Source: an uncultured Saprospiraceae bacterium (GTDB taxonomy: Bacteria; Bacteroidota; Bacteroidia; Chitinophagales; Saprospiraceae). From it: a stretch of DNA of 64,000 bases. Shown piece by piece: positions 8,301 through 24,129 of this stretch. The position numbers were made by a program, and so were the translations under genes. The notes beneath the pieces are model-generated. The model was given only the letters and a program-made list of their open reading frames with translations, was not told the DNA's origin and did not search any database. Location: NCBI GenBank assembly GCA_938015595.1, contig CALLPI010000008.1, positions 248,001 to 312,000 of the forward strand, written 5' to 3'. Each line of letters starts with the position of its first letter. Positions within the stretch are counted from its first letter, which is position 1.

Positions 8301-8531
8301 ATGGCAGACGCCTCCATCTCGGTGGGTAAACCCGACTGGTTCCACCTGCCGGATACCCGCATAGGCGTGCGAGGGCTATGGCGTACGCTCAACCAGTACT
8401 CGCCGCGCTATGCGCCCACCCAAACCCTAAACGGCGGCAACAACCTAGGCCCCGACCCCAACGCCATCGGCTTTGACAATGGCAACGAATGGGAAATCAG
8501 AACCTATATAATCATCAATGTTGGCAAATAA
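5385..8531 (+). CDS. clan GH-A glycoside hydrolase fused to predicted outer-membrane beta-barrel
   Basis: 1048 residues from the ATG at 5385, which starts a signal peptide ending near PAQ. Residues about 30-430 form a (beta/alpha)8 hydrolase like the catalytic part of GH2/GH5 enzymes: the acid/base is Glu172 in LLGNENN and the likely nucleophile Glu273 in LLTEFGS. A charged linker (about 440-460) leads to roughly 580 residues with alternating aromatic/polar strands, many Gly, Trp and Tyr turns, and a C-terminus IRTYIIINVGK, as in outer-membrane barrels. A cell-surface or periplasm-facing glucan hydrolase tethered to its own pore is the reading. The first gene of the beta-glucan operon, 14 bases from the next. 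The exact GH family was not assigned. Confidence 0.7.
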   Translation: MKNCAQKIVLVFVLAGISFLLPAQPDRVFLEKNDNGIKLMVNGRDFMVNGINWDYFPIGTNYSYSLWNAPDAFIKRALDDEMSLLRSMGVNTIRVYTGIQPKWIKYIYEEYGIYTMLNHSFGRYGLTLNGAWFQNTEYADARVRELLLQEVSQLAQEYKNTPGLLLYLLGNENNYGLFWDGAETEDIPLENRRATQRARSMYKLFNEAALAMKAIDPLHPVAICNGDLLFLDIIAQECKDVDVLGINVYRGASFTDLYTRVEKEYGKPVLLTEFGSDAFNAITMEEDQQAQAWYLKSNWQEIYENAAGLGKSGNSLGGFTFQFSDGWWKYGQTKNLDVHDTNASWSNGGYLFDYQPGQNNMNEEWFGICAKGPTNAQGFYQLYPRAAYYVLKEVHRLNPYAAGMNPSMIKKHFDNILIMDAVLSARADKAALEAEKNKKIRLSRLTAELSTFNTGGSLISTPRAPVPNSQVFPNQLGFDHMQSFFVGVEANPASNMRANVEVNVLGNVAQNPIDQIFYENRGRPLAVRTPNGHVNLEANNRVQVYRAEYHWNHKWFDLHGFYRTGHYHWGYEGDFFGLYQEANYGPVIDIYNGIAPFGFEMEGKRQLHGLKAAFGPQLWWGANPALLLKYSKTLAGVNLTGVFHEDLEQLGLTESSFAIPQPQTRRMTLHAGKKLGKLGIDLGGIWGGQPLQGRPFQLVRGKEGNYTVYEDVIRPEDNWGGKVKLTYEGGKFKWYVQSAVMGLVANGGPNYTQTFTGWKLKDSGSGNQYNFLSGFTYNIGNLQIAPNFLWQKPIEGPIPADVPAPGRPRNILDDPFVVRGNREQVAGEILFTYDPTPSSWMYQWDSDRSEDAKFALSTGFVYRHLPTTQDAAIGILPDGRTVFAFPGAAPAQDLWEVHARVVSKWSSKFGLIANLYAGDAQANGSDTRTIRRYGIDVRVISGSVKLHSFLKLNDWGPYDYHRDFNLTFPLQLMADASISVGKPDWFHLPDTRIGVRGLWRTLNQYSPRYAPTQTLNGGNNLGPDPNAIGFDNGNEWEIRTYIIINVGK

Positions 8532-8545
8532 AAAAGATACGCAAC

Positions 8546-10414
8546 ATGAATACCAATGTGTGCTATACGTCGAGGTTATACCTAGCCCTGGCGTGGTGTT
8601 GGCTCTGGCTACTGTTCTCTGCCTGCGAGCGCGAGGTAGAAGGGCTGGAATCTCCGGCTTATCCCTCCAATCCGGAAGTATTTATTGACGGCTTCAGTCC
8701 GGGGCTAAATTATGCGGCTTTTGGCGGCTCTGTACTTACGGCTTTTGACGTAGATCGAGAGGTGACCTACAACGGCTCTGCGGCGTCTATGCGTTTTGAA
8801 GTGCCCGACGTCAATGACCCCAGGGGCGCGTATGCCGGCGGAACGTATTATACTACCGTAGGCAGGGATTTGTCAGGATACAATGCGCTGACCTTCTGGG
8901 CCAGGGCTTCCCAGCCTGCCAATATTGACGTAGTGGGCTTTGGCAATGACCTGGGTGAGTCTCGTCATCAGGTCACTATTTCCGGGTTGCCAGTCAATAC
9001 TAACTGGAAGAAGTACATCATCCCTATACCTGATCCCTCCAAGCTCAAGGCAGAGCGCGGGATGTTTTTTTATTCGGAAGGCCCAGAAAATGAAAAAGGC
9101 TACACCTTTTGGATAGATGAAGTGAAATTTGAAAAACTCGGCACGCTGGCACACCCTCGGTATCTCATCCTCAACGGGCAGGACCAGACAGAGACCTCTT
9201 TCATCGGCATCACCAAAACCATAGGTGGCCTGAAATCTGTGTTCAATCTGCCTGTCGGGGTGGATCAGGAAGTTACGGTAGCACCTGCATATTTCGATTT
9301 TTCTTCATCTGACCCCTCTATAGCCACGGTGGACGAGAGTGGTCGGGTAACGGTCCGTGGCGGTCCGGGCACAGCCCGTATCACGGCTCGGGTAGGCGGC
9401 GCGGTAGCTACAGGTTCGCTGACTATTCAGTCGGCTGGCAATTTCCAGGCAGCACCGCGCCCAACGCGCCCTGTGGCTAACGTCATTTCTGTGTTTAGCG
9501 ATGTGTATCCCAACGTGCCGGTGGACTACTACAACGGCTACTGGGCGCCGTACCAGACCACTCAGTCGGCAGACTTTACCGTGGACGGAGACAACGTACT
9601 GCACTACACCAACTTCAACTTTGTAGGGATTCAGTTTACCTCTCCTACGATCAATGCTTCTTCCATGACCCATCTGCACGTGGATGTCTTCATCCCGAAT
9701 ACCTTGCCGGCCAACGCTCGGTTCAAGATTGAAATGGTACACTTCGGCACGCCCAACATTACGGGTGCATTCACCACCATCATCACAGCGGTGCAGTCTC
9801 GTCAATGGGTGAGCCTGGACATTCCGCTGGTCAGCTTTGCCGGGCTGAGCAATCGGTCGAATCTGGCACAAATCATCTTCGTGGACGATAGCAACAATAT
9901 TGACAGTTTCTACGCCGACAATATTTATCTGTATAATGCCGGCACGCCGCCCTCGGCGCCCACTACGCCTGCGCCGACACCCACGCATCCTGCGGCCAAT
10001 GTCATCTCGGTGTTCAGCGACGCATACACCAACATTGCCGGCACCAACCTGAACCCCAACTGGGGGCAGGCCACTGTGGTCACCCAGGTGAGCATTCAGG
10101 GCAACAACACTCTGCGCTACGGCGGCCTCAACTACCAGGGCATACAGTTGGGCAGCAATCAAAATGTATCGGGCATGCAGTTTTTGCACCTGGACTTCTG
10201 GAGTGCCACTTCTACTTCGCTCAAGGTATTTCTCATCAGCCCAGGGCCGTTGGAAACGCCGTTCATCCTGACTGTGCCCACCAACGGCTGGTCGAGTGTA
10301 AACATTCCCCTGTCGGCTTTTGTGCCGCCGGTCAATTTGTCCAATGTGTTTCAGCTCAAGTTTGAAGGCAACGGGGATATTTTTCTCGACAATATCTACT
10401 TCTTTCGCAACTAA
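8546..10414 (+). CDS. multi-modular glycan-binding lipoprotein
   Basis: 622 residues from the ATG at 8546. The signal peptide ends in LFSAC with the lipidated Cys27, followed by acidic residues (EREVEG), compatible with surface export in Bacteroidota. Modules: a jelly-roll carbohydrate-binding-like domain (about 35-190, ending WIDEVKF), a Big2 Ig-like domain (about 225-290, SSSDPSIATVDESG), and two copies of a module starting VISVFSD (about 305-460 and 470-622) joined by a Pro/Thr linker. No catalytic motif was found. The last two modules are related to the duplicated module of the secreted protein at 22285. It probably takes the place of a SusE/F-type surface glycan-binding protein for beta-glucan. 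Confidence 0.75.
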   Translation: MNTNVCYTSRLYLALAWCWLWLLFSACEREVEGLESPAYPSNPEVFIDGFSPGLNYAAFGGSVLTAFDVDREVTYNGSAASMRFEVPDVNDPRGAYAGGTYYTTVGRDLSGYNALTFWARASQPANIDVVGFGNDLGESRHQVTISGLPVNTNWKKYIIPIPDPSKLKAERGMFFYSEGPENEKGYTFWIDEVKFEKLGTLAHPRYLILNGQDQTETSFIGITKTIGGLKSVFNLPVGVDQEVTVAPAYFDFSSSDPSIATVDESGRVTVRGGPGTARITARVGGAVATGSLTIQSAGNFQAAPRPTRPVANVISVFSDVYPNVPVDYYNGYWAPYQTTQSADFTVDGDNVLHYTNFNFVGIQFTSPTINASSMTHLHVDVFIPNTLPANARFKIEMVHFGTPNITGAFTTIITAVQSRQWVSLDIPLVSFAGLSNRSNLAQIIFVDDSNNIDSFYADNIYLYNAGTPPSAPTTPAPTPTHPAANVISVFSDAYTNIAGTNLNPNWGQATVVTQVSIQGNNTLRYGGLNYQGIQLGSNQNVSGMQFLHLDFWSATSTSLKVFLISPGPLETPFILTVPTNGWSSVNIPLSAFVPPVNLSNVFQLKFEGNGDIFLDNIYFFRN

Positions 10415-10431
10415 CTCAAATTGATATAGTG

Positions 10432-11238
10432 ATGAATGCGAAAATGTGCGCGCTAGCCTTGCTTCTCACGTTGATAGGCTGCAAAGCGGACGACTTCCAA
10501 AAACTGGAGCCGCGCAACTGGCAACTGACCTGGAGCGATGAATTTAACGGCGCGGCTGGCGCTCTGCCCGATCCTGACAAGTGGACTTTTGACCTCGGTA
10601 CGGGCAATGGCGGCTGGGGCAACCAGGAGTTGCAGTCTTATACCAACAGCCCCGACAATGTGTCTATGGATGGCCAGGGCAACCTGGTGATTACCGCCAG
10701 GCGGGCAGGCAATGCCTTCACCTCGGCCAGAATCAAAACGCAAGGGCTTTTTGAGCAAAAGTATGGCCGCTTTGAAGCGCGCCTAAAAACACCCTACGGC
10801 CCAGGATTGTGGCCTGCTTTCTGGTTGCTTGGCGCCAACATCTCGTCTGTGGGATGGCCCCAGTGCGGCGAAATTGACATCATGGAACTACGGGGGCAGG
10901 AGCCCCACATTGTACATGGCTCGCTGCACGGGCCGGGCTACTCTGCCGGCAATGCCATCACCAAAAAATATGCCTTGCTCAATGGCCGCTTCGACGCCGA
11001 CTACCACGTGTATGCTGTGGAGTGGGACGCCAATAAGATTGATTTCTTCGTTGACGACTTCCTCTACCAGCGCGTGGAGCGCAGCAAGGTGCCTGGCGAG
11101 TGGGTGTACGACGCTCCGTTTTTTCTGATTTTCAACGTAGCAGTGGGCGGCACATTCGTGGGGTTTCCTACAGCACAGACGCCCTTCCCGCAGCGCATGA
11201 TCATTGACTACGTGCGGGTATATCAGGAGGCGAAGTAA
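10432..11238 (+). CDS. GH16 lipoprotein, laminarinase-like endo-beta-1,3-glucanase
   Basis: 268 residues from the ATG at 10432 (a GTG lies directly before it). Lipobox LIGC gives lipidated Cys17, then KADD, an acidic/lysine tag resembling the lipoprotein surface-export signal known from Capnocytophaga. The GH16 signature GEIDIMELRG contains the nucleophile Glu147, Asp149 and acid/base Glu152; the bulge methionine (EIDIME) is typical of laminarinases and lichenases. FGRFEARLKTP-like and WPAFWLLG segments also fit. It would cut internal beta-1,3 bonds of laminarin-type glucans at the cell surface. It lies 17 bases after the binding lipoprotein in one operon. Confidence 0.9.
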   Translation: MNAKMCALALLLTLIGCKADDFQKLEPRNWQLTWSDEFNGAAGALPDPDKWTFDLGTGNGGWGNQELQSYTNSPDNVSMDGQGNLVITARRAGNAFTSARIKTQGLFEQKYGRFEARLKTPYGPGLWPAFWLLGANISSVGWPQCGEIDIMELRGQEPHIVHGSLHGPGYSAGNAITKKYALLNGRFDADYHVYAVEWDANKIDFFVDDFLYQRVERSKVPGEWVYDAPFFLIFNVAVGGTFVGFPTAQTPFPQRMIIDYVRVYQEAK

Positions 11239-11518: not shown

Positions 11519-14500
11519 ATGCCGTCAACTGCCCAAACAGACAAACCCGCCCACAAAACCGTGGATCTGCGCCTGGTAACGCACGACAACGAGCGCTGGC
11601 TCCGAATATCCCACTGCGATGCCATGCGCCCGTTCTTCATGAGTGTGGTGAGCGATTCTAATCACTGGATGTTTATTGCCAGCAATGGAGGGCTTACTGC
11701 AGGGCGCAAAAACCCAGAGTATGCGCTGTTTCCCTACTATACCGATGATAAAGTAACCGAATCGGCAGAAATCACGGGTAGCAAGTCCATCTTCCAGGTG
11801 TGGGCCGGCCAGGAAACCTGGGTGTGGGAGCCATTTTCGGAGCGTTTTACCGGTCGCTATGCCATCAGCCGGCATTTGTACAAAAGTGTCTGGGGCAACA
11901 AAATCATGTTTGAGGAAATCAACCACGACCTTGGCCTCACTTTTCGCTACCGCTGGTGCAACAGCCACCGATTTGGATTTGTGCGGCAGGCGGAACTGCG
12001 CAATGACTCAGACAGATACTACACCATCACTTTACTAGATGGCCTACAAAACCTCATGCCCTATGGTGTACCCAGCGACCTGCAAGCCAAAGCTAGCAAC
12101 CTGGTGGACGCTTACAAGCGCAGCGAACTGGAGCCAGCCTCTGGCGTAGGGATCTTTGCCCTCAGCGCTATTATTGTGGACAAAGCCGAACCCGCCGAGG
12201 CGCTCAAAGCCAATGTAGTTTGGTCATTGGGACTGGAGCGCCCCAGGTATCTGTTGTCTGCTTTGCAATTAGATAATTTCAGAAGAGGGCAGGCCATCCG
12301 ACAGGAACACGACGTCAAGGGCGAAAAAGGCGCGTATTTCGTATGCGCAGACATTGCGCTGCCCGCTCGTGCTGGCAAGAAGTGGATGATAGTGGCCAAT
12401 GTCAACCAGAGCCATACCCAGGTGGTGGATCTTCGCCGGGTCATCCTCTCTGAGGCTGACCTGGAAAAACAACTTCACGACGACATTGCCGCTGGCACGC
12501 GCCGACTGATTCATCTGGTAGCTAGTGCCGACGGGCTGCAGTGCACCGCCGACGTGCTCAACGATACCCGCCACTACAGCAACGTACTTTTCAATATCAT
12601 GCGGGGCGGCATTTTTGACAACCACTACCAAATAGATAAAAAGGACTTTGTGACCTATCTTGCCAAAGCCAACAAGGAAGTGGCCGCAAGAAACCAGTCT
12701 TTCATTGAGGTGTTGGAAGAGACCTTTGGCCAAGCAACACTCAAAGACCTGGCGCTGCGCAGTGGCGATGTCGACTTCATACGGCTGGCCATTGAGTATT
12801 TGCCTCTGAGGTTCAGTCGCCGGCATGGAGATCCCAGCCGTCCGTGGAACTACTTTTCTATCAATACCCACAGCGAGGCCGATGGCTCCAAAATTCTGGA
12901 TTACGAAGGCAACTGGCGCGACTTGTTTCAAAACTGGGAAGCCCTGGCCCTGGCCTACCCAGAGTTTATCGAGGGCATGATTTTTAAGTTTCTCAACGCT
13001 TCCACTTTTGATGGCTACAATCCCTATCGAGTGACTAAAGACGGCTTTGACTGGGAAACTATTGAACCCGACAACCCCTGGTCGTACATCGGCTACTGGG
13101 GCGACCACCAGATCATCTACTTGCAGAAGTTTTTCGAGATCATCGAAAAATACCATCCCGGTGCCTTGCAGGCTTTTTGGGACAAAGACTGGTTTGTGTA
13201 CGCCGCAGTACCCTACGTCATCAAGCCCTATGCACAAATCCTGGACAACCCGCAAGATACCATTGAGTTTGACCACCGCTGGGACGCCGCCATCCGCAAG
13301 CGACGTGAGCAACTAGGTGCCGACGGCGCACTGCTAGCTAAGCCAGGCGGGGGTGTTTATCACGTCAATTTCACCGAGAAACTGCTAGCCGCCCTGTTGG
13401 CCAAGTTGTCCAACTTTGTACCCGAAGCCGGCATCTGGATGAATACCCAAAGGCCGGAGTGGAACGACGCCAACAACGCTTTGGTGGGCAATGGTGCCTC
13501 CATGGTCACGCTGTATTACTTGCGTCGTTTCCTGGCGTTTTTCCATCAGTTATTGAGCAGCAGCCCACTGGGGCAGGTCAATATTTCGGCACAACTGGCC
13601 GAATTGTACCACCACATCTTGGAAGCGCTACAGCACTACAGCCCCTTGTTGAAGGCGCACTTCTCGCCGCAAGACCGAAAAGCCGTCATGGATCGGCTCG
13701 GTAGCGCTGCTTCCAACTACCGGCATCAGGTGTATCAGTATGGGTTTTCGGGAGAGAAAAGCGCTATTGGCCTGGATGAACTCCAGGACTTTATCCGACT
13801 GGTGCTGGACTACCTGGAGCACTCTATCCGCGCCAACCAAAGACCAGACAAGCTGTATCACGCCTACAACCTCATTACTGTAAAAAATGACAGCGCGGAG
13901 GTGGCGCGCCTCACAGAAATGCTGGAAGGGCAGGTGGCCGTGCTGAGCGCTGGGTATCTGAGTGCAGAGCAAGCACTAGAGGTATTGGATGCCTTGAAGC
14001 GCAGTGCGCTGTTCCGCGAAGACCAATACAGCTACATCTTGTATCCCAACAAAAACCTACCCGGATTCTTACAAAAAAATATCCTTTCTGGCAAGGATGT
14101 ACAGTCGTCGGCACTACTCAGGCAACTGCTGGCCGACGGCAACCCAGCCATTGTGGAGCAGGATATGGAGGGCGATTTCCACTTCAATGGCCATTTCAAA
14201 AACGCCAAAGACCTGGAGCAGGCTCTCAACGCCCTGGGGGGCAAGTACAGACATTTAGTGGAGCAAGACCGGCCACTGGTGCTGGATCTTTTTGAGAAGG
14301 TGTTCCAGCACAAGGCATTTACCGGGAGGTCGGGCACCTTCTTTTCTTATGAAGGGCTTGGCTCTATCTACTGGCACATGGTGTCCAAACTGCTACTGGC
14401 TGTGCAGGAGTGTTGTATGAGTGCTATTGAAAATCGTGCTACTCCGGAGGTAATCAGCAGGCTGCTGGAGCACTACTACGAGATAGAAGCCGGTATAGGC

Positions 14501-14998
14501 GTGCACAAGCCGCCGGAGTTGTATGGCGCGTTTCCTACTGACCCCTATTCGCACACCCCCCTGCACCGCGGCGCGCAACAGCCGGGCATGACGGGCCAAG
14601 TGAAGGAAGACATCCTCTCGCGATTCGGAGAGTTGGGGGTATTTGTCAAAAATGGGCAGTTGTATTTCGATCCCTGCTTGCTGCGCAGCGCGGAGTTTCT
14701 TCAGGCACCACAAGTCTTCGAATACTGCACTGTAGCTGGTGATACCAGGCAGTTGGTACTGCGCGAAGGGCAGTTGGCTTTCACGTGCTGCATGGTTCCT
14801 GTGGTGTACTCGTGGGCCGATTCAGACACCATCACTGTGCACTATACTGACGGGAAAGCAGAGCAAATGATCGGGAATGTACTAAACCGCCGAATTAGCA
14901 GCCTCGTGTTCAGGCGAACAGGAAAGATAGAACGAGTAGAAGTGTTCTTAAACCAAAATAGATGTGCATCGCATGCTTGTATCAGAGGAGTGACATGA
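11519..14998 (+). CDS. GH149-type beta-1,3-oligoglucan phosphorylase
   Basis: 1159 residues without signal peptide, hence cytoplasmic. The (alpha/alpha)6-barrel core with RPEWNDANN (Asp650 as likely catalytic acid), GYWGDHQIIYLQKF and SRPWNYFSINTHSEADG resembles GH94-type inverting phosphorylases, but the length far exceeds GH94 enzymes (about 800-900) and matches GH149, the family of beta-1,3-glucan phosphorylases from Euglena and bacteria. It would convert beta-1,3-oligoglucans plus phosphate to alpha-glucose-1-phosphate. The GH16/GH17 neighbours agree with that substrate. Its stop overlaps the next gene's start (ATGA), so the two are translationally coupled. Confidence 0.82.
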   Translation: MPSTAQTDKPAHKTVDLRLVTHDNERWLRISHCDAMRPFFMSVVSDSNHWMFIASNGGLTAGRKNPEYALFPYYTDDKVTESAEITGSKSIFQVWAGQETWVWEPFSERFTGRYAISRHLYKSVWGNKIMFEEINHDLGLTFRYRWCNSHRFGFVRQAELRNDSDRYYTITLLDGLQNLMPYGVPSDLQAKASNLVDAYKRSELEPASGVGIFALSAIIVDKAEPAEALKANVVWSLGLERPRYLLSALQLDNFRRGQAIRQEHDVKGEKGAYFVCADIALPARAGKKWMIVANVNQSHTQVVDLRRVILSEADLEKQLHDDIAAGTRRLIHLVASADGLQCTADVLNDTRHYSNVLFNIMRGGIFDNHYQIDKKDFVTYLAKANKEVAARNQSFIEVLEETFGQATLKDLALRSGDVDFIRLAIEYLPLRFSRRHGDPSRPWNYFSINTHSEADGSKILDYEGNWRDLFQNWEALALAYPEFIEGMIFKFLNASTFDGYNPYRVTKDGFDWETIEPDNPWSYIGYWGDHQIIYLQKFFEIIEKYHPGALQAFWDKDWFVYAAVPYVIKPYAQILDNPQDTIEFDHRWDAAIRKRREQLGADGALLAKPGGGVYHVNFTEKLLAALLAKLSNFVPEAGIWMNTQRPEWNDANNALVGNGASMVTLYYLRRFLAFFHQLLSSSPLGQVNISAQLAELYHHILEALQHYSPLLKAHFSPQDRKAVMDRLGSAASNYRHQVYQYGFSGEKSAIGLDELQDFIRLVLDYLEHSIRANQRPDKLYHAYNLITVKNDSAEVARLTEMLEGQVAVLSAGYLSAEQALEVLDALKRSALFREDQYSYILYPNKNLPGFLQKNILSGKDVQSSALLRQLLADGNPAIVEQDMEGDFHFNGHFKNAKDLEQALNALGGKYRHLVEQDRPLVLDLFEKVFQHKAFTGRSGTFFSYEGLGSIYWHMVSKLLLAVQECCMSAIENRATPEVISRLLEHYYEIEAGIGVHKPPELYGAFPTDPYSHTPLHRGAQQPGMTGQVKEDILSRFGELGVFVKNGQLYFDPCLLRSAEFLQAPQVFEYCTVAGDTRQLVLREGQLAFTCCMVPVVYSWADSDTITVHYTDGKAEQMIGNVLNRRISSLVFRRTGKIERVEVFLNQNRCASHACIRGVT

Positions 14999-16350
14999 CG
15001 CGCTTCGCTGCGCTTCTTGCAAGAGGCCTGGAGGCGAGCAAGGAGCTTTCGCACTGGCGGCGTCAAGCTGTGTTCCTATGCCTGTGGGTATTGGCTATGG
15101 CGACATTCTCGTCTTCTTGCAGCCCTACCAAGGTGCCTGCTGATAAAACTGCCGCCGACATCCTGGGCAACCCTGCGTACCAGGCCATTTCCTTTGGCAG
15201 TTACCGGGGGTTGTCGTGCGATATTCAGCCCACCATACCCCAGCTCAAGGAAGACCTGAAGATACTGTCGGCCATGGGTATAAAGTTGCTCAGGACATAC
15301 AATGTGTACTACGGCGAAGTGGCCAAACTGCCGGTAGTCATCCGTCAGCTAAAAGCCGCAGACCCTTCATTTGAAATGTACCTCATGCTGGGCGCGTGGA
15401 TAGACTGCAAAAATGCCTGGACGGATCAGCCCCCCAACCACGACGAAGAAAGCGAAAAAAATGCCAGCGAGATAGACCGAGCGGTGGCATTAGCTCAAAA
15501 GTATCCCAACATAGTGAAGATCATTGCCGTAGGGAATGAGGCCATGGTAAAGTGGGCCGAAAGCTACTATGTACAGCCCAGAGTAGTACTCAAGTGGGTC
15601 AACCACTTGCAAAACCTCAAAAAACAAGGTAAACTACCTCAAACCCTGTGGATCACTAGTTCCGACAACTTTGCCTCTTGGGGCGGTGGCGGCAGCGAAT
15701 ACCACGTGGAAGATTTGAATGCCTTGATCAAAGCCGTGGACTTCATCTCCATGCACACTTACCCCATGCACAACACACACTACTACAACCCCAACTTCTG
15801 GGGCGTGCAAGAAGACGAGCTGAGCTTATCAGATGTGGAAAAAATCAACGCCGCAATGTTGCGCGCTAGAGACTACGCCGTAAGCCAGTACGAAAGCGTG
15901 GTGCACTACATGAAAAGCCTCGGTGTGGACAAACCCGTGCACATTGGCGAAACCGGCTGGGCCACCCAGGCCAACGAACGCTACGGCAACAAAGGCTCCA
16001 GAGCATGCGACGAGTACAAATCGGCACTCTACTATCAGCACATGCGCAACTGGACTAATACCGCCGGCCTAACTTGTTTTTACTTTGAAGCCTTTGACGA
16101 ACAATGGAAGGATGCGGCTAACCCCGGCGGTTCGGAAAACCACTTCGGGTTGTTCAATCTACAAGCACAGGCCAAGTATGCCATCTGGAATCTGGTGGAC
16201 GCCGGCGTGTTTGAGGGCCTCATGCGCGACGGGCAGCCTATCACCAAGACTTTTAATGGAGGAGATATGGCCGCTATGATGCGCAACAATAAAAGCACCC
16301 CCAACAGCAGCAGAAACCAAAAGCCAACATTGAAAACAGCAGCGATATGA
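14995..16350 (+). CDS. GH17 lipoprotein, beta-1,3-glucanase or glucanosyltransferase
   Basis: 451 residues from the ATG at 14995, which has a strong Shine-Dalgarno (AGAGGAG) and overlaps the GH149 stop. A long N-region leads to lipobox SSSC with Cys42. The GH17 barrel shows Glu182 in AVGNEAM (acid/base) and Glu319 in GETGWAT (nucleophile), and FYFEAFDEQWK near the end, all family hallmarks. It should act on beta-1,3-glucan at the periplasmic or outer face. The C-terminal tail after about residue 415 is low-complexity (Asn/Ser/Lys). It overlaps the following GH30 gene by four bases. Confidence 0.88.
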   Translation: MTRFAALLARGLEASKELSHWRRQAVFLCLWVLAMATFSSSCSPTKVPADKTAADILGNPAYQAISFGSYRGLSCDIQPTIPQLKEDLKILSAMGIKLLRTYNVYYGEVAKLPVVIRQLKAADPSFEMYLMLGAWIDCKNAWTDQPPNHDEESEKNASEIDRAVALAQKYPNIVKIIAVGNEAMVKWAESYYVQPRVVLKWVNHLQNLKKQGKLPQTLWITSSDNFASWGGGGSEYHVEDLNALIKAVDFISMHTYPMHNTHYYNPNFWGVQEDELSLSDVEKINAAMLRARDYAVSQYESVVHYMKSLGVDKPVHIGETGWATQANERYGNKGSRACDEYKSALYYQHMRNWTNTAGLTCFYFEAFDEQWKDAANPGGSENHFGLFNLQAQAKYAIWNLVDAGVFEGLMRDGQPITKTFNGGDMAAMMRNNKSTPNSSRNQKPTLKTAAI

Positions 16351-17876
16351 CTACAGGTGCAAGATACATAGTAGAAACGAGGAGGCCTCAAAGTAGCTAT
16401 CTCCTCTTCTGGGTAGTATTAGCTTTTCTAATCAGCAGTTGTATGCAATCCAAATCATTGGACGTAGAAGTGTATGAAACCTCCGCAAGTGGCCATAAAC
16501 TAACGCGGCTGTCTGAGTTTCCTACCGCACACACCACGGCAGAGGTCAACCTCTTGCCTGAAGAAGCCTTTCAGACCATCACCGGCTTTGGCGGTGCTTT
16601 TACCGAGGCATCTGCTCATCTGCTCAACTGCCTGAGCCAAGAAAAACGGGCGCGCATCCTAGAAGCGTACTTCGGAGATACCGGCGCCAGATACTCCCTG
16701 ACTCGCACCCATATCAACTCCTGTGATTTCTCCTTAGGCAACTACTCCTATGCTCCTGTACCCGGCGATGTGACGCTGAAAAACTTCTCCATTGCGGAAG
16801 ACTTAAACGACCTCATTCCTATGATCAAGGAGGCCATGGCTGTTTCCAAAGATGGCTTCAGAATCATCGCCTCACCTTGGACGGCGCCACCCTGGATGAA
16901 AGACAACAAAGACTGGCGCGGTGGCAAACTCCTGCCCAAGTACTACCCTGTCTGGGCGCTGTTCTTTTCTAAATATCTAGATGCCTACAAAGCCCAGGGC
17001 ATTGATATCTGGGGCTTTACGGTAGAAAATGAACCCTTGGGCAACGATAGCAACTGGGAAAGCATGCACTACACCCCGGAGGAAATGAACGAGTTTGTAA
17101 AAAAACACCTGGGGCCAAGACTGAAAGCCGATGGGCACGAAGTGAAAATCCTGGGCTTTGACCAAAACCGCGACGAAGAACTTAACAAATGGACAGACGC
17201 CATGTATGGCGATGAAGCGGCCGCAGCATTTTACGACGGAACTGCCGTGCACTGGTATGCCAGCACCTACGACTACTTTCCCGACGCCCTGCTGTACGCG
17301 CACCGCAAAGCACCTGGCAAGCACTTGATCAATACCGAAGCTTGTGTGGACGCCCAGGTGCCTCAATGGCAAAACGACGCCTGGTACTGGGCACAGGAAG
17401 CTACCGACTGGGGCTGGACCTGGGCCCCCGACGACCAAAAGCATCTGCACCCCAAGTACGTGCCCGTGTTTCGCTATGCGCGCGACATCATCGGCTGCCT
17501 CAATCACTGGGTGGACGGCTGGGTGGACTGGAATATGGTGCTTGATCGGCAAGGCGGCCCCAACTGGGCAAAAAACTGGTGCACAGCTCCCGTCATCGTG
17601 GATCCCGAGCAGGATGAAGTATATTTCACGCCTTTGTATTACGCTCTGGCCCACTTCAGCCGCTTTATTCGGCCGGGCGCGTTGCGCATAGGGTTCAAGC
17701 ACAACGATAGCGACCTGATGGTCACGGCGGTGCGCAACCCCGACGGCAGCACGGCGGTCGTTTTGTTCAATCCTACGGTACAAGTCAAAGGTATCAGGCT
17801 GACCATGCAGGGCAAAACAGCCGGATTTTCCATTGCCGCCAAGGCCATACAAACGGTTGTCATTCTTGATAAGTGA
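16347..17876 (+). CDS. GH30 lipoprotein, probable endo-beta-1,6-glucanase
   Basis: 509 residues; the signal peptide ends LISSC (lipidated Cys32). The GH30 core begins at QTITGFGGAFTEAS; the acid/base is Glu229 in TVENEP, and Glu331 in INTEAC is the likely nucleophile. SPWTAPPWMKDN and the C-terminal side beta-sandwich (SRFIRPGALRIG onwards) fit GH30 subfamilies 1/3. Given the GH16 and GH17 neighbours, removal of beta-1,6 branches from laminarin or yeast-type glucan is the likeliest role; beta-glucosidase or glucosylceramidase activity is the alternative. Its start overlaps the preceding GH17 stop as ATGA. Confidence 0.86.
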   Translation: MTTGARYIVETRRPQSSYLLFWVVLAFLISSCMQSKSLDVEVYETSASGHKLTRLSEFPTAHTTAEVNLLPEEAFQTITGFGGAFTEASAHLLNCLSQEKRARILEAYFGDTGARYSLTRTHINSCDFSLGNYSYAPVPGDVTLKNFSIAEDLNDLIPMIKEAMAVSKDGFRIIASPWTAPPWMKDNKDWRGGKLLPKYYPVWALFFSKYLDAYKAQGIDIWGFTVENEPLGNDSNWESMHYTPEEMNEFVKKHLGPRLKADGHEVKILGFDQNRDEELNKWTDAMYGDEAAAAFYDGTAVHWYASTYDYFPDALLYAHRKAPGKHLINTEACVDAQVPQWQNDAWYWAQEATDWGWTWAPDDQKHLHPKYVPVFRYARDIIGCLNHWVDGWVDWNMVLDRQGGPNWAKNWCTAPVIVDPEQDEVYFTPLYYALAHFSRFIRPGALRIGFKHNDSDLMVTAVRNPDGSTAVVLFNPTVQVKGIRLTMQGKTAGFSIAAKAIQTVVILDK

Positions 17877-17900: not shown

Positions 17901-20306
17901 ATGTCGGCTAGTACAACAATAAGTGCACACAAAGTTCCTTTCGGCCAGAAAGTGGCCTTTGGCCTGGGCATGTTGGCCAATCAAATGTTTCCGGCGGCGC
18001 TGGGCATATTCATGGTAGTGCTCGTGCAGGATTTAGGTTTTCCGGGCTGGATGTGGAGCGCCATTTACTTCTTTCCTCGAATATTTGACTCCCTTACCGA
18101 TCCCATTATGGGATTCATCTCTGATAATACCCGCTCGGTGTGGGGCCGACGGCGGCACTACGTATTTTCCGGTGCTATACTTATGGGTATAGCTTTTGTG
18201 ACCATGTGGCAGTTGTACCGCGAAAACGGCGTGACGTACAATTTCATTTACTTCATCCTGTGGTCGTTCATTTTCTACCTGGGGCTTACTATTTTCAGCG
18301 TGCCTTACGTGGCTATGGGCTACGAGATGAGCGACAACTTCCACGAGCGCACCAGCATCATGGCCACCGCCCAGTGGATTGGGCAATGGGCCTGGGTTAT
18401 TGCGCCCTGGTTCTGGGTGATCATGTATGACCCTAAGTGGTTTCCAAATGCCGATACGGCTACTCGGACCCTGGCTGTTTGGGTAGGGGTGGGGTGTACC
18501 TTGTTGGCCATAGTACCAGCTATTTTTATCAAGAGTAAGTCCACTAAAGACGATACGAGCCTGGCACCCCTTACGCTAAAGGGTATTGGCGGTAGCCTGG
18601 TGCAAATTTTTGAAGGGTTCAAACAGGCCTTTCAGTCCGTTCCCTTCAGGAAGCTTTGTATTGCCACTTTCCTCATTTTCAATGCATTCAATACCGTAGC
18701 GGCATTCTCCTTTTTCATTATCGTGTATCATTTGTTCAATGGCGACACGAAGGCTGCTGGTGTTTGGCCTACTTTATTCGGTAGCCTGGGGGCGCTGGGT
18801 ACTACTTTTTTGGTCATTCCTTCAGTGGCCTGGCTGTCGAAGCAACTGGGCAAGAAACGGGCCTTTTTGCTCTCGCAGGGCATTTCCATTTTGGGCTACA
18901 TTCTGTTGTGGTTTTTGTTCGTCCCTGGCAAGCCATATCTATTCATTTTTGCACTGCCATTTTTCTCCTTTGGCATAGGGAGCCTGTTCACGCTGATGAT
19001 GTCCATGACTGCTGACGTGTGCGACCTTGACGAACTGAATACCGGCAAACGGCGGGAGGGCATCTTTGGCGCTATTTACTGGTGGATGGTCAAATTCGGC
19101 TTTGCTATAGCTGGCGGTCTGAGTGGCCTGATCCTTACAATTGTAGGCCTGAACCCCGATGCTGCTGTGCAGCCGGAGGGTGCTGTGACAGGCCTGCGCT
19201 TGTTTTTTTCCGGCGTGCCTATGCTCGGTACCATGCTGGCCATGTGGGTTATGCGCAACTACGATCTGGATGAGCAGCGCGCACGCGAAATCCAGGCAGA
19301 ACTGGCCTCCCGAAAAGTGCAAAAACCTTCAAGAGGCTACATTGTCTCGGCACTCGGTTTAGAGGGCTTGTCCAAAGCAGAAATCCTGGCTCGCTTCCCG
19401 CAGTTTTTTGCCGTGCCACTGGACTTTGACACCATGGGCGAAGAGGAACTTCGCCATAGCTTCCAGGAGCAACTCAACAAAGGCATGCACGGGGTTTGCT
19501 TTAGCCCCTATTTGCCAGGGCAAAACCCCGGAGACCCCATTACGGAAGAACAGATACGCAAAAGGCTGGAGTTGGTCAGACCTCACACCCGGTGGATACG
19601 CACGTTTTCTTGCACTAACGGGCATGAACTGATTCCTGAAATAGCCCGCCAAATGGGACTGAACACCATGATTGGCGCCTGGATCAGTCATGACCTAGAG
19701 CGAAACGAACGAGAACTGCAAGTGCTTATGCAATTAATTCATCAAGGCTGGGTGGACATCGCCGCAGTGGGCAATGAAGTGTTGTTCCGGGGCGAATTAT
19801 CTGAAGAAGCCATCTGCCAATACATTGGCCGGCTCAAGCAAGCGGCCGGCTCCACACCAGTGGCCTACGTGGATACGTACTACGAATGGCTCAACCGGCC
19901 CAGGTTAGTAGAAGTTTGCGATATCGTATCCATCAACTGCTACCCGTTCTGGGAGGGTGCCAGTATTGAGACGGCCGGCTTTTACCTCCAGGAAATGTAT
20001 CACCGAGCTGTGGAGGCCGCTGGCGGCAAGCAAGTTATCATTGCCGAAACGGGCTGGCCCAGTATGGGCAGCCCTGTGGGGCAGGCTGTGCCTTCGGACG
20101 AGAACTACCTCCGCTACTTCCTCAGAACACAAATGTGGGCGGAGCGCTTTCACGTGCCTTATTTTCATTTTTCCTCCTTCGATGAATCCTGGAAAATTCA
20201 TGCCGAAGGCTGGGCCGGCACTTCCTGGGGGATTTGGGATGTACACCACCAACTCAAGTTCGCGCCGAGCGAGGGGGGGAGCGTCCACTCGTCGAAAACG
20301 TGCTGA
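17901..20306 (+). CDS. GPH-family sugar symporter fused to a GH17 beta-1,3-glucanase domain
   Basis: 801 residues in one open frame. Residues 1-455 are a MelB-like (GPH) sugar:cation symporter with about 12 membrane helices, the cytoplasmic GRRRHY motif, YVAMGYEMSDNFHERTS and ADVCDLDELNTGKRREG. Residues about 480-790 form a GH17 domain with Glu626 (AVGNEVLF) and Glu716 (AETGWPS) in the catalytic positions. Because GPH carriers have both ends in the cytoplasm, the hydrolase should face inward, ready to process imported oligoglucans. The domain is a close relative of the separate GH17 protein that follows. No stop or frameshift separates the halves. The last 12 residues are low in order. Confidence 0.88.
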   Translation: MSASTTISAHKVPFGQKVAFGLGMLANQMFPAALGIFMVVLVQDLGFPGWMWSAIYFFPRIFDSLTDPIMGFISDNTRSVWGRRRHYVFSGAILMGIAFVTMWQLYRENGVTYNFIYFILWSFIFYLGLTIFSVPYVAMGYEMSDNFHERTSIMATAQWIGQWAWVIAPWFWVIMYDPKWFPNADTATRTLAVWVGVGCTLLAIVPAIFIKSKSTKDDTSLAPLTLKGIGGSLVQIFEGFKQAFQSVPFRKLCIATFLIFNAFNTVAAFSFFIIVYHLFNGDTKAAGVWPTLFGSLGALGTTFLVIPSVAWLSKQLGKKRAFLLSQGISILGYILLWFLFVPGKPYLFIFALPFFSFGIGSLFTLMMSMTADVCDLDELNTGKRREGIFGAIYWWMVKFGFAIAGGLSGLILTIVGLNPDAAVQPEGAVTGLRLFFSGVPMLGTMLAMWVMRNYDLDEQRAREIQAELASRKVQKPSRGYIVSALGLEGLSKAEILARFPQFFAVPLDFDTMGEEELRHSFQEQLNKGMHGVCFSPYLPGQNPGDPITEEQIRKRLELVRPHTRWIRTFSCTNGHELIPEIARQMGLNTMIGAWISHDLERNERELQVLMQLIHQGWVDIAAVGNEVLFRGELSEEAICQYIGRLKQAAGSTPVAYVDTYYEWLNRPRLVEVCDIVSINCYPFWEGASIETAGFYLQEMYHRAVEAAGGKQVIIAETGWPSMGSPVGQAVPSDENYLRYFLRTQMWAERFHVPYFHFSSFDESWKIHAEGWAGTSWGIWDVHHQLKFAPSEGGSVHSSKTC

Positions 20307-20375: not shown

Positions 20376-21296
20376 ATGTCTTACAGAGTAGATAAATACT
20401 TGAGCTTCAAGGCATCGGCGCAGGTTACGGGCGAGGGCTTCTTCGATGGCAAATCGAATGAAGATATCAGAAATCTGTTTTTGGAAGTATTGTACAGCGG
20501 GGTGCACGGCTTCTGCTTTAGCTTATATGAAGACGGCCAAAAACCTGGCGACATTATTTCGGAGGAGCAGGTGCGCCGGCGAATGCAGATACTCAAACCC
20601 TACATACAGTGGGTGCGCTCGTTTTCCTGCACTGAAGGCAATGAATACATACCCAAAGTGGCCAAGTCCATGGGCATACACACCCTAGTTGGCGCCTGGC
20701 TGGGCAAAGAGGAAGACAAAAACCGCTTGGAAATTGACGGCTTGATCCAGTTGGCTAAAGATGGAGTTGTGGACATTGCTGCCGTGGGTAATGAAGTGCT
20801 CTACCGCAAAGACCTCACCGACGACCAACTACTCGGCTACATAGAGGAAGTAAAAAGTGCCCTGCCCGGCATCCCCGTAGGCTATGTGGACGCTTACTGT
20901 GAGTTTGTGCAAAAGCCGCACATCACTGCTGCCTGCGATGTCATCCTGTGCAATTGCTATCCTTTCTGGGAAGGCACGGATTTTGGCCACTCTCTTGAGC
21001 ACATGCGGCAGATGTACCGCCAGGCCAAAACTGCCAGCGAAGGCAAGAAGGTCATCATCACCGAAACCGGCTGGCCCAGCCAGGGCGAACGCCTGGGCAA
21101 TGCCGTACCCTCTATGCTCAACGCTATGAAATACTTTATCAATACCCAGCTTTGGGCTAGCGACGAAAACGTAGAAGTTTTTTACTTCTCCTCCTTTGAC
21201 GAATCCTGGAAGGTGGGCGCCGAAGGGGAGGTGGGCGCTTACTGGGGGATCTGGGACAAATACGAAAAACTCAAGTATGCCAATGGACACCTTTGA
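20376..21296 (+). CDS. cytoplasmic GH17 protein (paralogue of the transporter-fused domain)
   Basis: 306 residues without signal peptide or lipobox. It aligns by eye along its full length with the GH17 half of the preceding transporter fusion (FSCTEGNEYIP against FSCTNGHELIP, CNCYPFWEG against INCYPFWEG). Catalytic residues are Glu140 in AVGNEVLY and Glu230 in TETGWPS. It should hydrolyse or transglycosylate beta-1,3-oligoglucans in the cytoplasm before phosphorolysis by the GH149 enzyme. A 69-base gap precedes it with no clear promoter, and its 3' end overlaps the next gene. Confidence 0.87.
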   Translation: MSYRVDKYLSFKASAQVTGEGFFDGKSNEDIRNLFLEVLYSGVHGFCFSLYEDGQKPGDIISEEQVRRRMQILKPYIQWVRSFSCTEGNEYIPKVAKSMGIHTLVGAWLGKEEDKNRLEIDGLIQLAKDGVVDIAAVGNEVLYRKDLTDDQLLGYIEEVKSALPGIPVGYVDAYCEFVQKPHITAACDVILCNCYPFWEGTDFGHSLEHMRQMYRQAKTASEGKKVIITETGWPSQGERLGNAVPSMLNAMKYFINTQLWASDENVEVFYFSSFDESWKVGAEGEVGAYWGIWDKYEKLKYANGHL

Positions 21297-22236
21297 CGTA
21301 CTCGGCATACCTCCTGGCAGGGCAATATGCTACTCCGGCTTCCGGCATGGCCAACAACCGGGGGGGCAGTATCCCAGCTACGAGGAAGTTAAGGAAGACC
21401 TACTACTGCTGCATGGCCACTGGAAATACCTGCGCCTGTACGATTGCGACCTGCATGCTGAAACCGTACTAAGCGTCATCCAGCAGGAAAAACTCGATTT
21501 TAAGGTCTTGCTGGGCGCATTTATTGAAGCCGAGATGAACAACTTTAACTGCCCCTGGGGCGGCGGCGTATATGCCGAGGAGCAGTTGGATGCCAATGCC
21601 CAGAGCAATGAACGGAAAATCCACCGGCTTGTAGAGTGGGGCCAGCGCTATGCTAATATTGTTGTCGCGCTCTCGGTGGGCAACGAAGCCTGCGTGGACT
21701 GGACTGACCACTGCGTGCCTGAAAGTCGCGTGCTAGAGTTTGTTCATCAAGTAAAGGCCAAGGCCTCACAACCCGTGACTTTCTGCGAAAACTATGTGCC
21801 TTGGCTTTACAAGTTAGCATCGCTGGCTGATGCTCTCGACTTCATCTCCATTCATACCTATCCTGTGTGGGAATACCGGCACATTGAGGAATCACTCGAC
21901 TACTCCAAAGCAAACTACTACGCCGTAGCCGAAAAATACCCACACAAGCCAATTGTCATTACTGAGGCCGGCTGGGCTACCTGCTCCAACGGGAGGGGTA
22001 TCCCCCCAGAGAATGTCGGCGAGGAGTACCAGAAGCTCTACTTTGATAAACTGACGGAATGGGTAGGGCAAGAGCGCATTCTTACCTTCTTCTTCGAGGC
22101 ATTTGACGAACCGTGGAAAGGCTCACCCGACCCCCTCGAGCCCGAAAAGCACTGGGGGCTTTTTAACATAGACAGAACACCAAAACTGGCAGTACAACAC
22201 CTGGTGTCAGAAGGTCTCGCACTGAACAGCCGATGA
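21283..22236 (+). CDS. third cytoplasmic GH17-type glucanase
   Basis: 317 residues from ATG 21283 (an alternative ATG is at 21277); the start overlaps the preceding gene by about 14 bases, so coupled translation is likely. There is no signal peptide. GH17 features: Glu135 in SVGNEACVDW, Glu228 in ITEAGWAT and FFFEAFDEPWKGS near the end. It is more like the lipoprotein GH17 at 14995 (FEAFDEQWK, HWGLFN ending) than like its immediate neighbours, so this locus contains two GH17 lineages inside the cell. Substrate should be beta-1,3-linked oligoglucan; exo- or transferase action is possible. Confidence 0.83.
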   Translation: MDTFDVLGIPPGRAICYSGFRHGQQPGGQYPSYEEVKEDLLLLHGHWKYLRLYDCDLHAETVLSVIQQEKLDFKVLLGAFIEAEMNNFNCPWGGGVYAEEQLDANAQSNERKIHRLVEWGQRYANIVVALSVGNEACVDWTDHCVPESRVLEFVHQVKAKASQPVTFCENYVPWLYKLASLADALDFISIHTYPVWEYRHIEESLDYSKANYYAVAEKYPHKPIVITEAGWATCSNGRGIPPENVGEEYQKLYFDKLTEWVGQERILTFFFEAFDEPWKGSPDPLEPEKHWGLFNIDRTPKLAVQHLVSEGLALNSR

Positions 22237-22284
22237 TGTCAACTTACTGGAAAACGTTTTTTTAACTTATTAAATACTTTGCTT

Positions 22285-24129
22285 ATGCGTCATCTCATTT
22301 TTATATACCTTTTCCTCCTGCTGGGCACTTTGCAGGGCTTTTCGCAAAACGCTCCCATCAATTTTGAGACGGGCGGCGTCGGCGCCAACTGGACCTGGAC
22401 GGTCTTTGAAAATCATACTAATCCGCCCCTGGAAATCGTCAACAATCCGGCACCCGGCGGCATCAATGCCTCGGCTAAGGTGGCCAGGTTCACCGCATTG
22501 CAGGCCGGTAATCCCTGGGCAGGCTGCGAATCGGCTCACGGCAGTGCCAACCTGGGGCCTTTTGTGCTCAACGAGAGCAACGCCATCATCAAGATCATGG
22601 TGTGGAAGTCTGTCATCAGCGACGTAGGTATCAAGTTGGTTTCAAATACCGGATGGGCGCAGCCCGAAATCAAGGTAGCCAATACCGTGGTGAATCAATG
22701 GCAGGAACTCACCTTCGACTTCTCCGGCTATATGAATCCGCCCAACGGCCAGGGGCAATTAGACCAGATTGTTATCTTTCCTGATTTTAATCTGAGCGGC
22801 AGAGGACAAGATAACATCATCTTCTTTGACAATATCACCTTCAATCCGGTAGGCAGCACCAGTGATGAACCCACCACCCCCGCCCCTACGCCTACGCGTA
22901 GCCCGGCAGATGTCATCTCTCTGTTCAGCGAGGCCTACACCAATGTGCCGGTGGATACCTGGCGTACGCCCTGGTCGTCGGCAGTGCTGGAAGACATCAC
23001 CATACAGGGTAATGCAACCAAGAAGTATTCCCAGCTCGACTTTGTAGGTATCGAAACCATTGCTAATCAGTTGGACATCACCGAGATGACCCACTTCCAC
23101 ATTGATGTGTGGTCGCCTGATTTTACGCTCTTTGGGGTAAAGTTGGTGGACTTTGGCGCCAATGGCGTGTTTGGTGGTGGCGATGACGTAGAGCACCAGG
23201 TGGACTTCCCCACGCCGACGCAAGGGCAGTGGCTTAGCCTCGACATTCCGCTGAGCGCCTTCACTGGCCTGACCACCCGCCGCAACATTGCGCAGTACAT
23301 CCTGGTAGGCCGCCCGGTGGCTGCAAACACCATCTTTGTGGACAATTTATACTTCTTCCGCGATACTACCAGTGCCACCGAACCCAGTACTGCCGCCCCT
23401 ACGCCTACGCGTAGCCCGGCTAGTGTCATCTCCCTGTTCAGCGAGGCCTACACCAATGTGCCAGTGGATACCTGGCGTACGCCCTGGTCGTCGGCAGTGC
23501 TGGAAGACATCACCATACAGGGTAATGCAACCAAGAAGTATTCCCAGCTCGACTTCGTAGGTATCGAAACCATTGCCAATCAGTTGGACATCACCGAGAT
23601 GACCCACTTCCACATTGATGTGTGGTCGCCTGATTTTACGCTCTTTGGGGTAAAGTTGGTGGACTTTGGCGCCAATGGTGTGTTTGGTGGTGGCGATGAC
23701 GTAGAGCACCAGGTGGACTTCCCCACGCCGACGCAAGGGCAGTGGCTTAGCCTCGACATTCCGCTGAGCGCTTTCACTGGCCTGACCACCCGCCGCAACA
23801 TTGCGCAGTACATCCTGGTAGGCCGCCCGGTGGCTGCAAACACCATCTTTGTGGACAATGTGTACTTTTACAATGAAATGGTGCGCAGCCGAGACGTAGC
23901 CGCTTCGCCTAATCGCGTGTACGTTTATCCTAATCCCGTATCAGCCGGCGAGCCGCTGCAATTTAGCCAACCTGTAATCCGGGTAGATGTGTTTGATCCA
24001 CTTGGTAAGTTGGTCTTCTCTGGTAGTAGCGCCCAACTGCGTACCCACGCGCTGCGTCAGGGTGTTTACTTCTTGAATATGCACGCTGCGGAGGGAGGTA
24101 TTCAGATGCAAAGACTCGTCGTGCGATAA
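22285..24129 (+). CDS. T9SS-secreted protein with tandem duplicated glycan-binding-like modules
   Basis: 614 residues from ATG 22285 with a signal peptide ending near FSQ. Layout: an N-terminal jelly-roll-like domain (about 22-190, ending IIFFDNITF), then two almost identical modules starting VISLFSEAYTNVPVD (about 210-354 and 381-525) after Pro/Thr linkers, and a T9SS type A sorting domain (about 540-614: VYPNPVS...FSGSSAQ...GVYFLNM...RLVVR). No catalytic residues were identified. The module is related to the two in the lipoprotein at 8546. It is the last gene of the beta-glucan set and probably an extracellular or surface-anchored glucan-binding protein. Confidence 0.8.
   Translation: MRHLIFIYLFLLLGTLQGFSQNAPINFETGGVGANWTWTVFENHTNPPLEIVNNPAPGGINASAKVARFTALQAGNPWAGCESAHGSANLGPFVLNESNAIIKIMVWKSVISDVGIKLVSNTGWAQPEIKVANTVVNQWQELTFDFSGYMNPPNGQGQLDQIVIFPDFNLSGRGQDNIIFFDNITFNPVGSTSDEPTTPAPTPTRSPADVISLFSEAYTNVPVDTWRTPWSSAVLEDITIQGNATKKYSQLDFVGIETIANQLDITEMTHFHIDVWSPDFTLFGVKLVDFGANGVFGGGDDVEHQVDFPTPTQGQWLSLDIPLSAFTGLTTRRNIAQYILVGRPVAANTIFVDNLYFFRDTTSATEPSTAAPTPTRSPASVISLFSEAYTNVPVDTWRTPWSSAVLEDITIQGNATKKYSQLDFVGIETIANQLDITEMTHFHIDVWSPDFTLFGVKLVDFGANGVFGGGDDVEHQVDFPTPTQGQWLSLDIPLSAFTGLTTRRNIAQYILVGRPVAANTIFVDNVYFYNEMVRSRDVAASPNRVYVYPNPVSAGEPLQFSQPVIRVDVFDPLGKLVFSGSSAQLRTHALRQGVYFLNMHAAEGGIQMQRLVVR
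22881..23346 (+). repeat. tandem intragenic repeat, unit 1 (466 bp)
   Basis: This unit recurs 513 bases downstream at 23394-23859. Only about nine mismatches were counted by eye; nearly all are silent, with one Asp/Ser difference at the start of the module. Each unit encodes one VISLFSEAY-type module. Confidence 0.92.
23394..23859 (+). repeat. tandem intragenic repeat, unit 2 (466 bp)
   Basis: Second copy of the module-encoding repeat. The spacer between the copies differs in sequence from the DNA before the first copy except for the CCTACGCCTACGCG linker, which belongs to the repeat. Confidence 0.92.

Follow-up and report, generated by a model that had tools for sequence, protein, structure and literature searches.

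Laminarin is among the largest marine carbon flows. The closest described relative of the gene studied here is FbGH17B (FORMB_24740, AOR29491.1), an MFS-GH17 fusion of Formosa sp. Hel1_33_131 presented in passages of Unfried et al. 2018 (PMC6246565). According to these passages, its GH17 domain was assayed and found to be exo-acting, cutting only debranched laminarin and yielding glucose. The MFS-GH17 architecture is called common in marine Flavobacteriia there, and two enzymes, left unnamed in the same passages, are termed likely periplasmic. A second relative, MlGH17B of Muricauda lutaonensis, is a cytoplasmic, signal-less GH17 encoded beside a separate MFS gene in a laminarin PUL; it is a transglycosylase, 53% identical to the GH17 module of FbGH17B (PMC11005184). 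Clusters in which GH149 occurs with a cytoplasmic GH17 and an MFS_2 transporter were reported by Kuhaudomlarp et al. 2018 (PMC5827456). Cytoplasmic bacterial GH17s are already published (PMC11005184, PMC5827456), and laminarin loci with the gene order GH17-GH30-MFS-GH17 are on record from Muricauda, Polaribacter and Formosa. Our searches of open-access papers turned up no transporter-CAZyme fusion other than that of the 2018 paper and of studies following it up.

An earlier, sequence-only reading of the DNA analysed here considered transport and hydrolysis in one chain unusual. The 2018 passages (PMC6246565) speak against this: since FbGH17B is published, the type of fusion at the centre of that reading was already known. 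What we add are members from Saprospiria, Cytophagales and Burkholderiales, evidence on topology, the finding that closely related carriers repeatedly differ in having or lacking the hydrolase, and one case that looks like an independent re-fusion.

The fused gene and its cluster

The window, by which we mean the whole 64,000-nucleotide stretch of DNA that was analysed, holds the fusion in a laminarin gene cluster, beside GH17A-like and GH30 genes. Its relevant features are:

10429–11238, + strand: GH16 with a lipoprotein-type signal (sequence and Pfam)
11519–14998, + strand: GH149 beta-1,3-glucan phosphorylase without signal peptide (NF058639, 1756 bits, cut-off 1150)
14962–16350, + strand: GH17 with a lipoprotein-type signal, extracytoplasmic and laminarinase-like; its 3' end overlaps the GH30 gene
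16347–17876, + strand: GH30 with a lipoprotein-type signal, putative beta-1,6-glucosidase debranching enzyme
17901–20306, + strand: MFS_2/GPH-like symporter and GH17 domain in one gene, 801 aa
17940–19316, + strand: symporter part of the fusion, residues 14–472, 12 TM helices and a C-terminal helix
19317–19439, + strand: linker, residues ~473–513, variable in sequence, pLDDT < 50 at 474–483
19440–20264, + strand: GH17 (beta/alpha)8 barrel, residues 514–788, catalytic E626 and E716
20376–21296, + strand: stand-alone GH17 (N type), no signal peptide, 48% identity with the fused domain
21277–22236, + strand: third GH17-like gene, signal-less and more distant (25–28% to the fused domain)

The cluster runs head to tail in the order GH16, GH149, lipoprotein GH17, GH30, fusion, GH17, GH17, and from GH149 onward the genes overlap or are separated by gaps of at most 70 bases. 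It shares the GH17-GH30-MFS(-GH17) order with characterised laminarin PULs. As far as the 2018 passages describe FbGH17B (PMC6246565), the two fusions have in common an N-terminal 12-TM MFS part, a C-terminal GH17, a gene position after GH17A and GH30, and a laminarin cluster. The best reading of the window fusion is therefore as an FbGH17B-type protein, likened to it by architecture, gene order and enzyme family. Unlike the marine flavobacterium of those passages (PMC6246565), however, the host belongs to a Saprospiria lineage. The window also differs from the FbGH17B cluster in having two further signal-less GH17 genes downstream of the fusion, so that the cluster holds four GH17 domains in all, with a cytoplasmic location predicted for three. 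The first of the two, at 20376–21296, likely encodes a counterpart of the cytoplasmic MlGH17B kind; MlGH17B, itself encoded as a separate gene, likely matches this protein rather than the fused domain. For the third GH17-like gene the listed ORF opens at 21196, with a likely start near 21277–21283.

Between 16 kb upstream (L133) and ~28 kb into the window, no SusC/SusD-like gene was apparent among the large ORFs, most of which were inspected without profile scans. Positions 22279–24129 encode a protein of 616 aa in which two nearly identical repeats stand in tandem; its C-terminal end resembles Por_Secre_tail, scoring just under the cut-off. A similar repeat is present in the protein at 8489–10414. 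The 616-aa protein may be a surface protein that binds glucan and belongs to this cluster. The 774-aa protein encoded at 302–2626, upstream of the laminarin genes, is a candidate GH65-type phosphorylase or hydrolase.

The fused gene itself (17901–20306, + strand) reads from ATG to stop without interruption. Pfam MFS_2 matches residues 20–458 (E 3e-66, 224 bits against a cut-off of 27), and Glyco_hydro_17 matches residues 702–787 (E 5e-7, 30.0 bits against a cut-off of 28.2), a match that phmmer against solved structures widened to residues 540–771 (4wtp, E 4e-28). The full-length match to TIGR00792 (NCBIfam gph) scores 178.7 bits, below the curated cut-off of 231.35, so the label GPH/MelB-like holds and a narrower assignment does not. 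The sequence-only reading, which had described a GPH/MelB-like symporter and a GH17 domain in one frame with the catalytic glutamates Glu626 and Glu716 kept, is borne out on both counts: by the open ORF, Pfam and phmmer for the frame, and by exact positions for the glutamates. E626 lies within GNE and E716 within ETGWP, and both are invariant in an alignment of 42 fused relatives; in 4wtr, an active-site mutant, the position aligned with E716 is Ala. Judged by its sequence, the window protein is an intact fusion with a full symporter core and an intact GH17 active site.

Probable role of the fused GH17 domain

The best explanation of the locus, and in our view a probable one, is a laminarin-cluster importer that carries, on a tether, a cytoplasmic exo-glucanase acting on laminari-oligosaccharides. 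Outside the cytoplasm, laminarin would lose its branches and be cleaved through the lipoprotein GH16, GH30 and GH17, and the cation-coupled symporter would bring in short linear beta-1,3-gluco-oligosaccharides. The tethered GH17 would then trim the imported oligosaccharides at the inner membrane surface, releasing glucose if it behaves like its homolog FbGH17B, and as a result little free oligosaccharide would build up around the carrier. The remainder would be handled in solution by GH149 and the other two cytoplasmic GH17s. Nothing in this explanation requires the fusion to pass its product directly to GH149.

With the same location and tether, the fused domain could instead act chiefly as a beta-1,3-glucanosyltransferase, rearranging oligosaccharides after their import. 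Its nearest solved structures are indeed GH17 transferases: Foldseek matched the GH17 half to 4wtr and 4wtp (TM by target 0.87 and 0.86), whereas the VIA-align list was filled with MFS folds and is uninformative on this half. These are structures of RmBgt17A, which has the GH17 barrel and both catalytic glutamates in common with the fused domain, but is a fungal single-domain beta-1,3-glucanosyltransferase with 26% identity to it. MlGH17B, 53% identical to FbGH17B, also transglycosylates (PMC11005184), which makes disproportionation by the fused GH17 possible. However, FbGH17B, which has the same architecture, is reported in the 2018 passages as hydrolysing to glucose (PMC6246565), and we infer that the likely counterpart of MlGH17B is the N type and not the fused type. 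A domain acting mainly as a transferase is thus unlikely, and we prefer the tethered exo-glucanase.

A stricter form of coupling would be vectorial channelling, in which the GH17 domain docks at the inner mouth of the carrier, cleaves the oligosaccharide on release, feeds GH149 and pulls transport. The sequence-only reading had leaned this way, with oligoglucan trimmed as it emerges and the product handed to GH149. We modelled the fusion with AlphaFold2, using 42 fused sequences as input (mean pLDDT 88, pTM 0.61). The model places the long helices of the 12-TM carrier at residues 14–451, an extra helix at 458–472 and the barrel at 514–788, and leaves residues 474–483 unstructured, with pLDDT below 50. 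Because the domains are confident and the pTM is modest, the orientation of the two domains is unfixed in the prediction. The linker is also the least conserved inner part of the protein (0.29–0.34 versus 0.66–0.87 for the domains); the spacing from Y454 to G531 is 69–82 residues in 41 of the 42 fused proteins. The disordered linker and unfixed orientation of the model do not bear out trimming at the point of emergence followed by hand-off.

The link to GH149 differs between the two groups of hosts. A GH149 gene lies within ~8 kb of the fusion in 43 of 45 Bacteroidota loci versus 1 of 17 Burkholderiales loci; N-type GH17 counts were left out of this survey, since the N-type query cross-matches the fused domain. 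Searched genome-wide, four fusion-bearing genomes gave no GH149 match (AAP51, AAP65, Rubrivivax ACE_PRO12 and one Hydrogenophaga), several of the Burkholderiales genomes searched being MAGs and possibly incomplete, AAP51 and AAP65 not being labelled as such. Comamonadaceae CG12 and Rhodoferax genomes gave weak partial matches only, and in Rubrivivax 53601_E5 a GH149-like gene lies outside the retrieved fusion locus. These Burkholderiales genomes rule out GH149 as an obligatory partner and leave hand-off to it unsupported as a general mechanism. Channelling would sit well with a fusion that is widespread and crosses phyla, and with one apparent independent re-fusion with the sister GH17 (in locus L121, below). 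Set against these points, the variable and predicted disordered linker, the several Burkholderiales with the fusion but no GH149 match, and the unfused stand-alone carriers found at several points of the tree make channelling distinctly improbable.

Membrane side and carrier sites

MelB has both termini in the cytoplasm. Its structure 4m64 aligns over fusion residues 16–470, which puts the GH17 domain after TM12, on the side where MelB has its cytoplasmic C-terminus. Among structural matches to the symporter half, those of MelB rank first (Z 40, 441 residues, rmsd 2.9); MelB (4m64, 7l16, 9old) shares the 12-TM fold and the two helix-II cation-site aspartates with the fusion but has no hydrolase domain. 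With loop borders drawn by hand from the hydropathy profile, the loops carry on average 28.2 K/R on the GH17 side versus 4.4 on the opposite side, and the difference has the same sign in all 42 sequences. Reading the cluster proteins for signals, we found lipoprotein-type signals in GH16, GH30 and the first GH17, and no signal peptide in GH149, the two downstream GH17s or the fusion. From its position after TM12, the K/R bias in 42 of 42 sequences and the signal-less sister GH17s, as opposed to the lipobox enzymes, the fused GH17 domain is most likely cytoplasmic and flexibly tethered behind TM12. That the GH17 faces the inside of the cell, as the sequence-only reading had it, is therefore very probable, given the positive-inside count, the MelB-like 12-TM core and the signal-less sisters.

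A periplasmic or otherwise extracytoplasmic GH17 domain is highly improbable. GH17s are frequently secreted, and the 2018 passages leave the side open (PMC6246565), but such a domain would require an odd number of TM helices and is at variance with the MelB-like 12-TM core, with the positive-inside bias that all 42 sequences show and with sister GH17s that lack a signal peptide. On the positive-inside pattern and the MelB homology, we reject a periplasmic GH17. The topology evidence favours the cytoplasmic version of the coupling proposed in 2018, so far as those passages set it out.

The carrier sites bear on the transported sugar. The cation-site aspartates of MelB helix II, D55 and D59, align with D63 and D67 of the fusion, and both are invariant in the 42 relatives. 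The MelB sugar contacts D19 and D124 are replaced by Q28 and S133 and thus unconserved. With the cation aspartates kept and the sugar contacts changed, the carrier is likely a cation symporter with a sugar specificity other than that of MelB; for the same reason, it is solely the context that points to the imported sugar.

Spread and history of the fusion

Searching other genomes for the same domain pair, as had been suggested with the sequence-only reading, returned 92 distinct uninterrupted fusions of ~757–821 aa, the window's included, in a sample made up of genomes of the window's order and phylum plus named genomes. The fusion ranges over Saprospiria, Flavobacteriia, Cytophagales and Burkholderiales. 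Isolates that have it include Phaeodactylibacter luteus, P. xiamenensis, Polaribacter glomeratus, Flavobacterium paronense and Cecembia lonarensis, and the beta-proteobacterial isolates AAP51 and AAP65 also carry an MFS-GH17 fusion. The fusion of a Formosa sp. MAG (L102) is 63% identical to the window's. Under even sampling it is a minority trait, found in 5 of 199 genomes of the window's order.

An assembly artefact or missed stop codon merging two adjacent genes, for which one could cite several relatives that have carrier and GH17 as separate adjacent genes, has a vanishingly small chance and is ruled out by 92 distinct intact fusions from independent genomes, isolates among them, and by the separate GH17 neighbours being the sister N type and not the fused type; this also excludes the frameshift hiding a stop between the halves that the sequence-only reading had named as one possible refutation. 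Relatives with 'stops inside' could likewise be taken for split copies of the same fusion. For those in the GH17 tree this is wrong, because the separate downstream GH17 there is the sister N type, ~50% identical to the window's fused domain.

In the tree of the transporter part, stand-alone carriers fall at several places among fused ones. Ten changes between the fused and unfused states are implied, at least 6 of them forced by well-supported branches. In the tree of the GH17 part, the stand-alone N type forms a clade to which 33 of the 34 fused domains do not belong. The exception, L121 (475–2937, − strand), combines a carrier with a GH17 domain of the sister N type, apparently an independent re-fusion of the carrier with an N-type GH17. 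The simplest reading of these sequences would start from a single old fusion, with the hydrolase lost repeatedly and the N-type neighbour fused to the carrier anew in one case, although both trees are unrooted and made by a quick method, so that gain and loss of the hydrolase are not firmly separable. The Burkholderiales fusions form a single clade nested among Bacteroidota carriers (support 100 in the transporter tree), which fits lateral transfer and suggests that the fusion moved laterally between Bacteroidota and Burkholderiales.

A carrier holding its own cytoplasmic exo-glucanase would be a natural test of the effect of enzyme tethering on uptake speed, and the wide spread of the fusion, together with its natural unfused relatives, provides ready pairs for testing tethering. 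The apparent L121 re-fusion and a GH149-independent move from Bacteroidota to Burkholderiales might mean that tethering is a real kinetic gain for uptake and was selected, but we hold this to be doubtful. The remaining interest of the system lies in its broad spread, its unfused natural relatives and this putative benefit of tethering.

In L068, L080, L064 and other Burkholderiales loci, the fusion occurs with GH16, GH30 and further GH17 genes, mostly without GH149. In L068 a GH1-like gene, read from sequence, lies beside the GH17 genes and could be a substitute for GH149.
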